A stretch of 64,000 bases of DNA from positions 868,001-932,000 of the forward strand of contig NZ_MWQN01000002.1 of assembly GCF_002024165.1 (NCBI RefSeq), given 5' to 3'. A program made the translations under genes and the position numbers. Position 1 is the stretch's first letter. Every line of letters starts with the position of its first letter. A model generated the notes under the pieces. It was not told where the DNA came from. It saw nothing but the letters and a program-made list of their open reading frames with translations, and searched no databases. The stretch comes from Embleya scabrispora (lineage in GTDB: Bacteria > Actinomycetota > Actinomycetes > Streptomycetales > Streptomycetaceae). This document shows, piece after piece, positions 18,050 to 23,589 of the stretch.

Positions 18050-18939
18050 GTGGTGAGGCGCCGGCGGCCGACGACGACGCGATGCGGATCACCGTCGAGG
18101 ATCTGCGGGTCGTGCTGGCCGGGCGGGACATCCTGGCCGGTGTCGAACTGATCGCCGCCGCCGGGGAGATCACCGGCCTGGTCGGGCCCAACGGCAGTGG
18201 CAAGTCCACCCTGCTGCGCACGGTCTACCGCCATCTGAAGCCGCAGGGCGGCCGAGTCCTGCTGGGCGAGCGCGACCTGCGGTCGATGACCCCCGCCGCG
18301 GCGGCCCGGCACGTGGCGGCGCTGCCGCAGGAGCGGGAGAGCGACTTCGAGTTCACGGTGCGCGAGGTGGTCGCGATGGGACGCACCCCGTACCAGAAGG
18401 CATTCGCGGGCGACAGCGCCGCCGACCGTGCGGCGGTACTGATCGCGCTGGTGCAAACCGGCGTGGAGGAGCACCAGGGCCGCCGCTTCGCCACGCTGTC
18501 CGGCGGCGAACGCCAACGGGTGCTGTTGGCCCGGGCGTTGGCCCAGGAGCCGGATGTCCTGGTCCTGGACGAGCCGACCAACCACCTGGACGTACGCCAT
18601 CAGGTCGAACTCCTCACCCTCCTCCGGGCCCAGGACCGCACGACACTGATCGCCCTGCACGACCTCAACGCGGCGTCCTCGGTCTGCGACCGCCTGCACG
18701 TGCTCCACGAGGGCCGGGTCCGCGCGTCGGGCACCCCGAGGGAGGTGCTGACCCCGGCCCTGCTGGCCGAGGTCTTCGGTATCAGGGCGGCCGTCCTGGA
18801 TCACCCCTTGACGGGAGACCTCCTGATCGCCGTCGACCACTGGACCACGGCCCCGACGGCGGTGACGGCGGTCGCATCATCGAATCGGCGCGAAACCGGC
18901 GGGAGGGGTGGCGAGCGGGGGCGGCCGGGAATCAGGTGA
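18046..18939 (+). CDS. ABC transporter ATP-binding protein (FecE/BtuD type)
   Basis: 297 residues. Walker A 'GPNGSGKST' at 47-55, Q-loop in 'ALPQERESDFEFTVRE', ABC signature 'LSGGERQR', Walker B 'DVLVLDEPTNHLD', and the switch His in 'LIALHDLN'. It powers import through the FecCD permease; the ATGA overlap with the permease stop shows translational coupling. The last 30 residues are a Thr/Gly/Arg-rich tail not typical of the family. The gene converges with the RNA-repair operon and overlaps its end by 8 bp. Confidence 0.93.
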   Translation: MSGEAPAADDDAMRITVEDLRVVLAGRDILAGVELIAAAGEITGLVGPNGSGKSTLLRTVYRHLKPQGGRVLLGERDLRSMTPAAAARHVAALPQERESDFEFTVREVVAMGRTPYQKAFAGDSAADRAAVLIALVQTGVEEHQGRRFATLSGGERQRVLLARALAQEPDVLVLDEPTNHLDVRHQVELLTLLRAQDRTTLIALHDLNAASSVCDRLHVLHEGRVRASGTPREVLTPALLAEVFGIRAAVLDHPLTGDLLIAVDHWTTAPTAVTAVASSNRRETGGRGGERGRPGIR

Positions 18940-21847
18940 GGGTCGGGATCGCGCCGCTGTCGGTGTGGGCGAGGGTGATGCCCGGGAGGGAACGGGACCA
19001 GCGATCGGTGCACTTGGTGAGGTCGGCGGCGGTGGGCGGGGTGGCGCCGAGGCCGATGGCGTAGCGGGTACCGGTGTCGAAGGGGCGGGGCCAGGCGTGG
19101 GCGTCCCGGACGCCGGCCTCCTCGAGGAATTTGAGCAACGAGCGTACGCGGCCGCGGAGTCGGCCGGTGGTCGCGGCGAACTCGTCGGGGGAGGAGGGAG
19201 GTACGGTCACGACGAGCCAGGCGGCGTGGCGGCGATGCAGCGGGGGAGGTTCGGTTGCCTCGGGCCAGGGGTCGGTGCCGTCGGACTCCGCGGCGGTCAG
19301 GATCTCCCAGGCGCGGTACAGCTCGTCGGTCAGGAGGTCGAGGCCGCCGGGGGCCACCTGTTCGGTGCAGGAGCGCACCGGGTGACTGGGTGTCAGGATC
19401 GACATCGGTGCTTCGGCGCCGGCGGTGCCGGCCGGTTCCGGGCGGGCGCCGCGGGGGGAGAGGGTCACCGGGGTGTGCCAGTCCCATGCGGCCCAGGTGG
19501 CGAAGAAGTCTCGGAGCAGTTCGTCCGAAGTGGCGTCGGGCGCGGCGTCGATGGTGGTGCGGGCGGCGAGTATCGACCAGGCCACGCCCGGGAGCCCGCC
19601 GAAGGGGGCCGAGTCCAGGCCGCGTGCGTGCGCCCAGGCTTTGACCTGCCGGGCCAGTACGGCGAACCTCGCGTGTGCCGCGCCGACCGCGCTCAGGATC
19701 GCGTCGGCGTCGGTGACCGCGCTCAGGGCGATGGCGGCCGGTTCGGCGAGTTCGGCACGGCGGTCCACCGCGTCGGCGGGCGGGATTCGTCCGGTGCCGA
19801 CCAATACGAGGTCGGTGGTCATGTCGCCGAAGCTCAGGCGCAGTCCGGGCACCCGGGCGCCGACCACGGGACGGACGCTGCCGGCCTCGGGCAGGGCGGT
19901 GGTGACCCGGGCCGCCACCTCGCCGAGGTCGACCGTGCCGGGCAGGGCCAGGACGAGGTCCAGGTCTGCGTCGGGCGCGGCGCAGCCCATCCGCCGGGAG
20001 CCGACCACGGACACGACGCCCTCGTCCAACGTCCCCGCGATGCGGCGAGCGATCCGCCGTGCGCGCGCGTCCCGTTCCGGGTCGGTGGGCAGGGGCGGCC
20101 CGTGGGTGGCGGTGCTGTCGTCCGGGTGTTCCGGTAGCCATCTCAGGCTGCCCGTGCCCAGGGTCAGCACGGCCCTCGGTCGCATGGGCTCGTCGCCTCG
20201 GCGGGAGAGCAGGACCAGGGTGTCGACCCGGGCGGACGTCGGGCTCAGCCGGGCCGAGCACGTGGCCGCCGTTTGTTGGGGGTTGTCGCTGCGGCCCAGG
20301 GTCAGGTGTGGGGTGTAGGGCCTGCCGGGCGCGTGGCAGTTGGGGAAGTGGCGGGCGAAGGTTCGGTGCAGCTGCGCCCACGCGCCCTCGTCGGCCGCCG
20401 CCGGGTCCAGCCAGATGGTGGCGTCCTCGCGGTGGCCGAAGGTGTGTACACCGGACAACTCCGCCACGAAAGGCGCGATGTGCGCCGCCGCGGCGGTGAG
20501 CAGCGGGGCGGCGCGGGTGAAGGCGGCCTCCGGGACGAAGCCGAAGAGGACGTTGACGTGCGGCGGCCAGCGGTCCACCTGCGGGTCGTGGGCGCGGCGG
20601 AGGGCTTGGAGATCCGGCCACAGGTGCTTCGGGGGCAGCCAGGCCAGTGCGGTGCGTGCCGTCGGGGCCGCGTCGAGGACGGCGGTACGGGTGTCGGCGC
20701 CGGTCACCAGGTCGGCCTGGACGCCGAAGTGGTCGGAGATGTACAGGCCGTCGGGCTCGGGCTCGTCGCCGCGGAGCACCGCCGTCTCGGTGCGCCAGGT
20801 GCCGGTGCGGAGCAGGACGCGGTCCAGGCGTGCGGCGCGGCCGGTGCGGGAGCCGATGGCCGCGAGCGGGTTGACACCCGGGTCGAAGGTCGGCGTGTGG
20901 TCGTCGGGGCCGTGTACCTGCGTCCACGCGTCGGTCAGCCCGAGCGCGGCGGCGGGGCCGGTCGGGCCCGCGCTGCCGTCGTTGAAGTCGCCGACCACGA
21001 CCAGGTCGTCCGGTACGCTCGCGAACCCGTCGGCGAGCGCGGCGAGTTCGACGCGGCGGCGGCCGGGCCCGTCCTGGGCGTGGTCGCTGGTCAGGTGGGT
21101 GACGGCGACGACCAGCGGCGTGGCGCCGGTGTCCACGGTGATCGCCGCCACGGCCTTGAACGGGCCCAGTACGTGCCGCCCGGCCTCGCGCACCGGCAGT
21201 CGGCTGAGCAGTACGAGTCCGCTGTCGGCGACGTCCCGGCCGGCGGGATCGGTGTCCATCGTGTACGCCGCGCGCAGCCACGGTTCGGCGGTGAGCAGCG
21301 CGATCAGGTCGGGTTCGACCTCCTGGAGCGCGATCACGTCCGCGTCGGCCGCCGCCAGCGCGGTGAGCAGGCGTGGTCGGCGGCGGGCGGTGTCGATGCG
21401 GTCGGCGTCGTAGCGGTCCCAGAGGGTGTTCCACGTCAGCACGCGGATTCGGGCCCGGGCACCGGAGTCGCCGGTTCGGGCGGTGGCGGACGCGGGGGCG
21501 GATGGTGTCGTGGGCGCGGGAGCGGGCAGCCAGCGTCCCGTGGCCGGGTCGAAGGCGTACGGTTCGCGTGCGGTGAAGAAGGGTGCGCGCAGCCGGCGCG
21601 GATCGTGTGCGCGGCCGACGGTGCAGGTGTCGATGCGGTCCACGCGTTCGGCCCGGTCCCACACCACCTCGCCGTCCGCCTCGATGCGCAACACCCGATG
21701 CCACGGGATGTCCCCGCCCGGGACGAACGCGGGCAGCGCGATGCGTTTCGGCTCGGCGCCGCGCCTGCTGACCGCCAGGACGAAGCGGGCCGGGTCGAAT
21801 CGGGGATCCCAGCGCACCCGGTGGTAGATCTCCTCGCTGGTACGCAT
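18932..21847 (-). CDS. Four-domain RNA-repair protein: MJ1316, EEP nuclease/phosphatase, 2H phosphoesterase, poly(A) polymerase-like
   Basis: 971 residues. (1) Residues 1-75: MJ1316/DUF504 domain ('SEEIYHRVRWDP' ... 'WHRVLRIEADGEVVWDRAER'), proposed to recognise RNA cyclic-phosphate ends. (2) About 133-380: endonuclease/exonuclease/phosphatase domain with Asn140 ('LTWNTLW'), Glu176 ('ALQEVEP'), 'GDFND' (286-290) and 'SDHFG' (371). (3) About 395-570: 2H phosphoesterase with His430 in 'PPHVNVLFGF' and His514 in 'PHLTLGR'; the first motif is HxN rather than HxT. (4) About 595-971: nucleotidyltransferase with 'VVGSRRMG', Asp628/Asp630 ('DADLDLVLALP'), Asp679 and a poly(A)-polymerase-like C-terminus. 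Predicted to process damaged RNA ends. Its ATG overlaps the ligase stop (TAATG). Confidence 0.88.
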   Translation of the reverse strand: MRTSEEIYHRVRWDPRFDPARFVLAVSRRGAEPKRIALPAFVPGGDIPWHRVLRIEADGEVVWDRAERVDRIDTCTVGRAHDPRRLRAPFFTAREPYAFDPATGRWLPAPAPTTPSAPASATARTGDSGARARIRVLTWNTLWDRYDADRIDTARRRPRLLTALAAADADVIALQEVEPDLIALLTAEPWLRAAYTMDTDPAGRDVADSGLVLLSRLPVREAGRHVLGPFKAVAAITVDTGATPLVVAVTHLTSDHAQDGPGRRRVELAALADGFASVPDDLVVVGDFNDGSAGPTGPAAALGLTDAWTQVHGPDDHTPTFDPGVNPLAAIGSRTGRAARLDRVLLRTGTWRTETAVLRGDEPEPDGLYISDHFGVQADLVTGADTRTAVLDAAPTARTALAWLPPKHLWPDLQALRRAHDPQVDRWPPHVNVLFGFVPEAAFTRAAPLLTAAAAHIAPFVAELSGVHTFGHREDATIWLDPAAADEGAWAQLHRTFARHFPNCHAPGRPYTPHLTLGRSDNPQQTAATCSARLSPTSARVDTLVLLSRRGDEPMRPRAVLTLGTGSLRWLPEHPDDSTATHGPPLPTDPERDARARRIARRIAGTLDEGVVSVVGSRRMGCAAPDADLDLVLALPGTVDLGEVAARVTTALPEAGSVRPVVGARVPGLRLSFGDMTTDLVLVGTGRIPPADAVDRRAELAEPAAIALSAVTDADAILSAVGAAHARFAVLARQVKAWAHARGLDSAPFGGLPGVAWSILAARTTIDAAPDATSDELLRDFFATWAAWDWHTPVTLSPRGARPEPAGTAGAEAPMSILTPSHPVRSCTEQVAPGGLDLLTDELYRAWEILTAAESDGTDPWPEATEPPPLHRRHAAWLVVTVPPSSPDEFAATTGRLRGRVRSLLKFLEEAGVRDAHAWPRPFDTGTRYAIGLGATPPTAADLTKCTDRWSRSLPGITLAHTDSGAIPTLT

Positions 21848-23589
21848 TACGCCTCCTCCGCATCCAGGGAGCCGGCGACGTCGTCGACGGTGCCGCCCGC
21901 ACCGATGTACCGGGTCCGGCTCGCCTGTCCGGGGTAGGGCGGGGCGAACCGGCGTCCCTGCGCGGCGAGTACGGCCGGCGGGATCGGGTGTTCGCGCGTG
22001 GCGTTGCGAGCGGTCAGCTCGTCCTCGCCGACCAGCACGATCGTGTGTGTGGTCAGCGCGTTGCGGCGGTGCGCGATGGCGGACACCGCGGCCCGTTGTG
22101 GGCCGGTGAGCGAGGTGGCGTCCCAGACCACCGTACCGCCGGCGGCGAGCGCGGCGTCGAGGCGATCCAGGCCCTCGCGCAACACGTCGCCGTTGGCCCG
22201 CTGGTCGGCCCGGGCGCCGCGGGCCTCGCGCAGGTCGTCGAGGGCGATGTGGGCGGCGACGTCGGGGAGTCGGCGGGCGTAGGTGCTCTTGCCGCTGCCC
22301 GAGCGGCCGATCAGGTGTATCAGCCGGGGGAAGTCCCCGGACCAGTGCCGGCGGGTCGCCTCGGGCGGCATGGTCCAGCCCTTGGCGTGGGCGTCGCGCA
22401 GCTCGGCCCAGCAGCGGTCGGCCACGTCCGGCGGCAGGTCGGCGAAAGCGGCACGGGCCCGGGTACGCAGCGGCGCCAGAGGAGCCTCGTCGGTGAGGCC
22501 GGCGTCGGCGGCGAGCAGGGCCGACCACTCCACCCGCTCGGATTCCGCGGCGGCGTCCGAGCGGGTGGTGTCGGGGCCGGTGCGTGCGGTGGCCACGGCG
22601 CCGGCGACCGCGTGCAGTACGCCCAGGTCGGCGGCGGCCGCCAACCTGGCCAACCCGCGCGGGCGTTCGTCGTCCGGGAACGGGCGGCGCAGCAGGGCCT
22701 GGAGGCCGACCAGGTCGGCGATCCGGCGGGCCGCGGGCATGCCGAGCACCGATGCCGCCTCGGCGGCGAGCGCGGCGCGGGGTTCGGTGTGCAGGGCGGC
22801 GGCGAGTACGCCGGTCAGTCGGGCGTCGCCGGAGCGGCCCAGGCCGTCGATCCGGGCGCACGCGTCGGCCACCAACTCGACGGTCGCGGCATCGGGTTCG
22901 TCCCGTCCCAGCAGGCGGAGCAGGGCGGGCAGGTCGGGCGTGGCGCCGGAACGGACGTCCCAGAGCGCGGCGTTGGGGCCGAGGCCGTTGGGGGTCACGG
23001 CGGCGTGCATCCAGTGCGTATCGGTCTGCACGTGGCCGCGACGCACCCACTTGGCCACCCGGTGGCCGAACTCCGCGCGGGGGAAGCCCTCGACGGAGCG
23101 TACGACGAAGCCCTCCTGCCGCGCGGGGTCGAGCCGGATCGCGCGCAACGCGCGTTCGTCGAACACGCCGCGCCACAACACCGGCGGGGTGGGTACGCCC
23201 AGGCGGCGCAGGAAGCGCGTGCTCTCGTCCCAGCCGAGGCAGTCGTCGCCGGCCCAGACCGAGAAGCCGTAGAACCAACTCGCCAGCGTGTCGTAGCCGA
23301 TCGAGTGGCGCGCGAACATGTTCTCGCCGCACACCCGCCACCCGGCCGGGATCCGTGCGCCGATCCGGCCCTGGAGTCCCTTGACCCAGGTGCGGGAGGG
23401 GTGGTGCTGCGAGTCGAGCGAGCGCGCGTGCAGCCCGTCGGCGTAGAGCGTGGTGTTCTCGCCGTCCAGCTTCTCGGTGACCACGACCTCGAGGCCGCGG
23501 AGCGCGGACAGGTCGCCCGAGCGGATGTCGTCGGCGCCGGCGCCCGGGGACCAGGGGACATGGGGGGTGCGGGGATAGTGCGTACGCAT
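21847..23589 (-). CDS. RNA ligase fused to a polynucleotide kinase
   Basis: 580 residues. The N-terminal 210 residues are an RNA ligase nucleotidyltransferase: motif I with Lys40 in 'EKLDGENT', 'VCGENMFARHS' near motif III, 'FYGFSVW', motif IV 'EGFVVRS' (159-165) and motif V 'HRVAKWVRR' (Lys180). A helical middle part (about 215-415) follows. Residues 425-580 are a P-loop kinase: Walker A 'GRSGSGKST' (428-436), 'IALDDLREARG' and 'VVWDATSLTGPQR', as in the 5'-OH kinase of Pnkp/T4 Pnk-type enzymes. It would phosphorylate 5'-OH ends and seal RNA breaks. Start ATG 23589 has GGAGG 4 nt upstream. First gene of a two-gene operon with the MJ1316/EEP/2H/PAP protein. Confidence 0.9.
   Translation of the reverse strand: MRTHYPRTPHVPWSPGAGADDIRSGDLSALRGLEVVVTEKLDGENTTLYADGLHARSLDSQHHPSRTWVKGLQGRIGARIPAGWRVCGENMFARHSIGYDTLASWFYGFSVWAGDDCLGWDESTRFLRRLGVPTPPVLWRGVFDERALRAIRLDPARQEGFVVRSVEGFPRAEFGHRVAKWVRRGHVQTDTHWMHAAVTPNGLGPNAALWDVRSGATPDLPALLRLLGRDEPDAATVELVADACARIDGLGRSGDARLTGVLAAALHTEPRAALAAEAASVLGMPAARRIADLVGLQALLRRPFPDDERPRGLARLAAAADLGVLHAVAGAVATARTGPDTTRSDAAAESERVEWSALLAADAGLTDEAPLAPLRTRARAAFADLPPDVADRCWAELRDAHAKGWTMPPEATRRHWSGDFPRLIHLIGRSGSGKSTYARRLPDVAAHIALDDLREARGARADQRANGDVLREGLDRLDAALAAGGTVVWDATSLTGPQRAAVSAIAHRRNALTTHTIVLVGEDELTARNATREHPIPPAVLAAQGRRFAPPYPGQASRTRYIGAGGTVDDVAGSLDAEEA

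Follow-up and report, generated by a model that had tools for sequence, protein, structure and literature searches.

A two-gene Embleya operon encoding a predicted RNA repair system with a putative degenerate HD domain in its ligase-kinase protein

Gene layout and domain content

Two adjacent genes were identified on the reverse strand of the window (the whole 64-kb stretch of DNA that was analyzed), with a 1-nt overlap between the TAA stop codon of gene 1 and the ATG start codon of gene 2 (TAATG) (Table 1). The host, Embleya, is a soil bacterium related to Streptomyces with a genome of 10.96 Mb; its nearest named relative is E. hyalina, in which gene 2 is 91% identical. Both reading frames were kept in homologues at 47 to 94% identity. 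Comparison with two congeners (E. hyalina and E. scabrispora) detected dN/dS values of 0 to 0.44 in every domain, indicating that purifying selection acts on all domains of both genes. These observations ruled out chance open reading frames. An earlier note on this DNA had described a ligase-kinase gene followed by an MJ1316-EEP-2H-poly(A) polymerase (PAP) gene. These genes and domains were confirmed by ORF calls and Pfam searches, in which each named domain scored above its curated cut-off and none fell into an unrelated family.

Table 1. Coordinates in the window of the two genes and of their domains and motifs
Feature	Position	Strand	Basis
Gene 1, ligase-putative degenerate HD-kinase protein, 580 aa	21847..23589	-	ORF call, Pfam
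RNA ligase domain (PF09414), residues 34-182	23044..23490	-	Pfam, E 1e-31
Nucleotidyl Lys40 in motif EKLDG	23470-23472	-	Invariant in 47 sequences
Ligase motifs III, IV, and V (E89, E159-G160, K180-W181)	within 23044..23490	-	Invariant in 47 sequences
Putative degenerate HD phosphoesterase domain, residues about 206-415	22345..22974	-	hhalign; no Pfam family
5'-OH polynucleotide kinase domain (AAA_33), residues 423-551	21937..22323	-	Pfam, E 1e-19
Gene 2, MJ1316-EEP-2H-PAP protein, 971 aa	18932..21847	-	ORF call, Pfam
MJ1316 domain (PF04457), predicted reader of 2',3'-cyclic RNA ends	21653..21847	-	Pfam, E 9e-17
EEP (exo/endonuclease/phosphatase) domain, TDP2-like	20729..21439	-	PF03372 Exo_endo_phos, E 3e-18
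2H phosphoesterase domain	20189..20635	-	PF13563 2_5_RNA_ligase2, E 2e-32, far above cut-off
2H motif 1, HVN, H430	20558-20560	-	Motif conservation
2H motif 2, HLT, H514	20306-20308	-	Motif conservation
Canonical nuclear-type PAP (palm, PAP_central, putative start of C-terminal domain)	19073..20032	-	PAP_central, E 5e-15
PAP_central	19277-19666	-	Pfam, E 5e-15

The nucleotidyl motifs of the gene 1 ligase were intact, with K40, E89, E159, and K180 invariant among the 47 sequences, and Foldseek comparisons placed its fold nearest to a Naegleria RNA ligase and T4 Rnl2. Rnl2-type ligases of jumbo phages, such as that of Xanthomonas phage XacN1, were 38 to 51% identical to gene 1 in the ligase domain only. 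A small Streptomycetaceae contig carried a phage-like stand-alone RNA ligase (L157, 77 to 832) that was 41% identical to the same domain. For the kinase domain, a profile search of solved structures detected CthPnkp (E 8e-10) and T4 Pnkp (E 2e-5). The P-loop (GxxGSGKS), D451, R454, and R528 were conserved, and K434 and D451 were invariant. Pfam and profile matches indicated that the operon encodes a 5'-OH kinase of the AAA_33/Pnkp type together with a 2H end phosphoesterase.

In gene 2, the MJ1316 domain was the most constrained (dN/dS, 0 to 0.06). The EEP residues N140, E176, D287, N289, and H373 were invariant in 36 sequences, and the nearest relative of this domain was TDP2, as indicated by a profile match (E 1e-8), a fold comparison (TM score of 0.80 on the target), and Foldseek, whose top matches were all TDP2. 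TDP2 is a 5'-end phosphodiesterase. An EEP domain with its catalytic residues is therefore present, as the earlier note had proposed, and the phosphatase activity assigned to it is a guess because the nearest relative acts on 5' ends; the likeness to TDP2 makes a role at 5' ends or on DNA possible. The first motif of the 2H domain had been singled out as an exception for being HxN rather than HxT. This motif is real and is the family norm: H-x-N was present in all 19 sequences of a first set and in 35 of 39 in a wider set, the other 4 having HVT. The idea of a defect in the Embleya copy was therefore rejected. The second motif was HL[T/S], and both histidines were invariant.

The nucleotidyltransferase at the end of gene 2 could be described more precisely than as a generic end-adding enzyme, since profile searches of solved structures placed it nearest to nuclear PAPs, among them human PAP gamma (E 2e-39), the match to the noncanonical yeast PAP2 being far weaker (E 7e-4). 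The aspartate triad of the palm (D628, D630, and D679) was invariant. No Pfam match to the C-terminal RNA-binding domain (PF04926) was detected, and the alignment with yeast PAP reached residue 411 of 530 to 546. Gene 2 carries the sole canonical nuclear-type PAP domain found in the Embleya genome and, among 397 genomes sampled across the phylum, PAP_central scored above its cut-off in the same three genomes as the operon and in no other. The presence of such a domain within a predicted bacterial RNA repair protein bears on the origin of the eukaryotic PAP family.

A putative degenerate HD domain and the Deinococcus counterparts

The ligase and kinase of gene 1 are separated by approximately 210 aa (residues about 206 to 415) in which helices were predicted with confidence. 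The original description of gene 1 had correctly recognized the two flanking domains and overlooked this helical one. As Catellatospora has a separate Rnl-type ligase beside an HD-domain kinase, the search was turned to HD-polynucleotide kinases (HD-Pnk). Alignment of gene 1 by hhalign with a profile of 13 HD-kinases produced an E value of 2e-36 for the HD and kinase regions together. The middle domain alone matched the HD-Pnk profile with an E value of 1.5e-6, or of 4e-7 when only the HD part was used, at a probability of 90 to 93%. This match had a score of 50.8, compared to no more than 24.4 for 60 column shuffles, 13.2 for the reversed profile, and 16 to 17 for PAP and 2H profiles. The relationship did not emerge clearly until 13 diverse HD-Pnk proteins were used; a comparison with two template sequences gave a probability of 0.2%. 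Fold matches in viruses that spanned the helical domain and the kinase included phage proteins of 374 to 401 aa, consistent with the HD-kinase reading.

An HD-fold domain thus appears to precede the kinase of gene 1, as in HD-Pnk proteins, and the HD metal ligands were absent. The segment of HD-Pnk that carries the upstream histidine had no counterpart in gene 1; at the D82 position of the H81-D82 dyad (DRB0098 numbering), an aspartate was present in 7 of 47 gene 1 sequences; and at the D172 position, which is V332 in gene 1, it was present in none of the 47. Judged from these alignments, the middle domain is a degenerate HD phosphoesterase, an identification that is new here, and gene 1 is most readily understood as a ligase fused to an HD-kinase with a putatively dead phosphoesterase.

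Plasmid searches detected a Deinococcus radiodurans ligase, DR_RS15960, with 58.7% identity to residues 1 to 203 of gene 1 and the same Lys40. Behind its gene lie one for a PARG and then one for an HD-kinase (DRB0098), and this gene order and Lys40 indicate that it is probably DRB0100. The HD domain of DRB0098 matched the middle domain of gene 1, and the alignment continued through the kinase and the linker preceding it. Whereas the ligase and HD-Pnk are separate proteins in Deinococcus, they are fused in Embleya, and the HD ligands that are intact in DRB0098 are lost in gene 1. The partners also differ, being a PARG/macrodomain protein in the Deinococcus operon and the MJ1316-EEP-2H-PAP protein in Embleya. 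The PARG encoded between the ligase and the HD-kinase acts on ADP-ribosylated RNA ends (PMC11833690). In other Deinococcus species, the ligase and HD-kinase genes overlap by a few bases.

DRB0100 is self-adenylated at Lys40 and yet sealed none of the RNA or DNA substrates that were tried, nor was DNA ligation seen when its operon partners were added, which led the authors to propose a missing factor (PMC1997131). As DRB0100 is the nearest tested relative, sealing of RNA by gene 1 is an activity that we infer. For the same reason, the claim that the operon supplies every activity needed to rejoin broken RNA was an overstatement; genes 1 and 2 are predicted to encode almost every enzyme necessary for cleaning and rejoining cut RNA. 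The loss of the HD metal ligands suggests that 3'-end healing has probably moved to gene 2. Such an apparent loss of the 3'-end-cleaning domain of gene 1 would account for the joint inheritance of the two genes. If true, it may also explain the failure of DRB0100 to seal unaided, in that DRB0100 and similar ligases may need ends healed in a special way (for example, 3'-OH and 2'-phosphate).

Distribution, coinheritance, and neighboring genes

Relatives of gene 2 were sought in 84,980 species genomes, at least 415 loci were detected, and the best 80 were examined for neighboring genes. These 80 loci were from Streptomyces, Kitasatospora, Embleya, Nonomuraea, Planomonospora, Catellatospora, and similar genera. 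Gene 1 immediately preceded gene 2 in 75 of them, mostly overlapping it or within a few bases, and no third conserved gene was detected within 8 kb of the operon. The two-gene operon originally described was borne out by this analysis. Four of the five loci without gene 1 upstream were from Catellatospora, which has an intact Rnl and HD-Pnk pair elsewhere in the genome. Among 100 relatives, gene 2 matches were found in 28, 5 of these by the 2H part only. All 23 genomes in which gene 2 was complete also had a full-length gene 1, the genes being unlinked in one (G068), and gene 1 was found alone in one genome (G073), at a contig end. Across the phylum, gene 2 was present in 3 of 397 genomes.

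A gene 2 homologue was also detected on a conjugative plasmid of Calothrix brevissima (L131, 7995 to 10970), with 29% identity over 94% of the query and all four domains by Pfam; gene 1 was absent from that plasmid. Two shortened relatives lacked EEP and PAP, namely, an MJ1316-2H protein on a Streptomyces plasmid (L132, 3001 to 3906) and a stand-alone 2H protein (L159, 5273 to 5896). Viral contigs contained no gene 2 relatives. An apparent fusion of genes 1 and 2 into a 1,585-aa protein in Nonomuraea montanisoli (L128, 6243 to 11000) was attributed to a shift of reading frame close to the 3' end of gene 1; as the second piece of the alignment runs in the other frame, this fusion was not counted as evidence of partnership.

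In about a dozen Streptomyces strains (L074, L077, and about 10 more), the operon is divergent and directly beside rpsJ of the S10 ribosomal protein operon, lying between rpsJ and tuf/fusA where those genes fall within the stretch. In three of four Catellatospora species (L086, L096, and L127), an RtcB ligase gene was located 1.4 to 3.5 kb downstream of gene 2 on the opposite strand; RtcB was near gene 2 at no locus of the set outside this one genus. In Embleya, the 10 nearest neighbors of the operon included no toxin gene, as had been noted before. Neither RNA genes nor Rfam families were detected within the window, and PADLOC defense models gave no match. KptA/Tpt1 is encoded elsewhere in the Embleya genome. 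An association of KptA with the operon was rejected, and its presence counts for little, because nearly all members of these families encode it.

Proposed mechanism, alternatives, and known systems

This operon is a predicted RNA repair system of a known sort in a new version, and it had for the most part been read correctly from the outset. The domain assignments stand, as do the operon and the logic of RNA end healing and sealing; the HxN anomaly, the generic end-adding enzyme, and the completeness of the set fall away, and the EEP phosphatase is left as a guess. Our preferred reading is that the operon is probably a two-protein machine for repair of RNA breaks, with gene 2 healing 3' ends and gene 1 sealing. 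The domains, their conserved active sites, the coinheritance of the genes, and the putative HD relic were observed; the activities and the order of the steps are predicted from what is established for these enzyme families, and RNA as the substrate and a role against RNA-cleaving toxins are inferred. After cleavage by a ribonuclease, one end would carry a 2',3'-cyclic phosphate and the other a 5'-OH; the MJ1316 domain, the predicted cyclic-end reader, would bring gene 2 to the break; and the 2H domain would open the cyclic phosphate. EEP would take off the remaining phosphate or trim the end, and PAP would replace lost 3' nucleotides or tag ends that are unrepairable. The kinase of gene 1 would phosphorylate the 5'-OH and the ligase would seal, any 2'-phosphate left at the joint being removable by EEP or by the KptA/Tpt1 of the genome. 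Gene 1 probably descends from a ligase and HD-polynucleotide kinase pair like DRB0100 and DRB0098, with the dead HD domain probably kept as a structural spacer, and 3'-end healing would then have to be provided by gene 2. A response to RNA-cleaving toxins is plausible, and the neighboring genes give it no support. As a loose parallel, bdelloid rotifers have horizontally acquired RNA-ligase-like genes that are induced under fungal attack (PMC11258130).

RNA repair was supported by the domains and active sites, the Pnkp- and Rnl2-like folds, the inheritance of the two genes as the sole conserved unit, and the degenerate HD domain with its controls. Further support came from the Catellatospora alternatives (Rnl and HD-Pnk; RtcB), the KptA of the genome, and purifying selection. 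It was weakened by the results with DRB0100, by an EEP domain that resembles TDP2 and not a known 3'-phosphatase, and by the lack of an RNA or toxin gene nearby; the proximity of RtcB concerns one genus and the opposite strand, and in 5 of 80 loci gene 2 is not preceded by gene 1. A more specific proposal, which we offer tentatively, is that gene 1 has lost HD healing and depends obligatorily on gene 2 (2H, TDP2-like EEP, and PAP), with missing nucleotides being refilled with untemplated A before sealing. If true, this would represent a split RNA repair enzyme in which healing has been shifted to the other protein.

The presence of a canonical PAP on an end-healing protein could instead indicate tagging of RNA for clearance, in which gene 2 would clean 3' ends and add poly(A) for decay while gene 1 would adenylate or cap ends without joining them. 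Poly(A) tails in bacteria generally promote decay. Self-adenylation of DRB0100 without sealing of any substrate tested (PMC1997131) would also fit. This explanation is unlikely, however, as all of the ligase motifs are invariant and Trl1-type repair enzymes (9r3w) are built in the same way, with a kinase fused to a ligase. A role in repairing or processing DNA ends or RNA-DNA hybrids was suggested by the likeness of EEP to TDP2 and by the related Deinococcus operon, which is induced by DNA damage and whose kinase acts on DNA oligonucleotides (PMC1997131, PMC11833690). Such a role appears improbable, since RNA is the known or predicted target of MJ1316, 2H, and PAP, the ligase belongs to the RNA_ligase family PF09414 with a fold nearest to those of RNA ligases, and DNA forms no 2',3'-cyclic phosphates. 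A housekeeping operon for RNA maturation or circularization would suit the steady purifying selection and the location beside the S10 operon in some Streptomyces strains but is improbable given how unevenly the operon is distributed (28 of 100 relatives; 3 of 397 genomes across the phylum), the gene 2 homologue on a cyanobacterial conjugative plasmid, and the lack of conserved neighboring genes.

If RNA break repair is the correct reading, the operon represents a compact and testable two-protein system for RNA end recognition, healing, extension, and sealing that is common in antibiotic-producing actinobacteria. The predicted recognition of cyclic ends by MJ1316 and the general syntax of RNA repair derive from the work of Burroughs and Aravind, as outlined in passages of PMC6514570 and PMC7824862. 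According to these passages, their 2016 survey of RNA repair systems describes the same building rule of a ligase, a nucleotidyltransferase, a healing kinase and phosphoesterase, and MJ1316, and their accounts of the surveyed systems make no mention of a degenerate HD domain. It is this domain of gene 1, and the division of labor that it implies, that are new here.

Gene 1 resembles the fungal and plant Trl1/RNL enzymes in having a ligase followed by a kinase in one chain, a likeness reflected in a weak Foldseek match (9r3w); a 2H phosphodiesterase accompanies them in both cases, and KptA/Tpt1 is present in the Embleya genome. The Embleya system differs in the family of its ligase (PF09414), in the location of 2H on the second protein, and in the additional EEP, MJ1316, and PAP domains. 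With the bacterial Pnkp/Hen1 system, the operon has in common the kinase domain family and the healing and sealing of RNA ends, whereas Pfam detected no PNKP_ligase (PF16542), metallophosphatase domain, or Hen1 in the operon. A separate Pnkp with kinase, phosphatase, and PNKP_ligase domains is encoded in the same genome (G000:C1; L155, 5332 to 8571).
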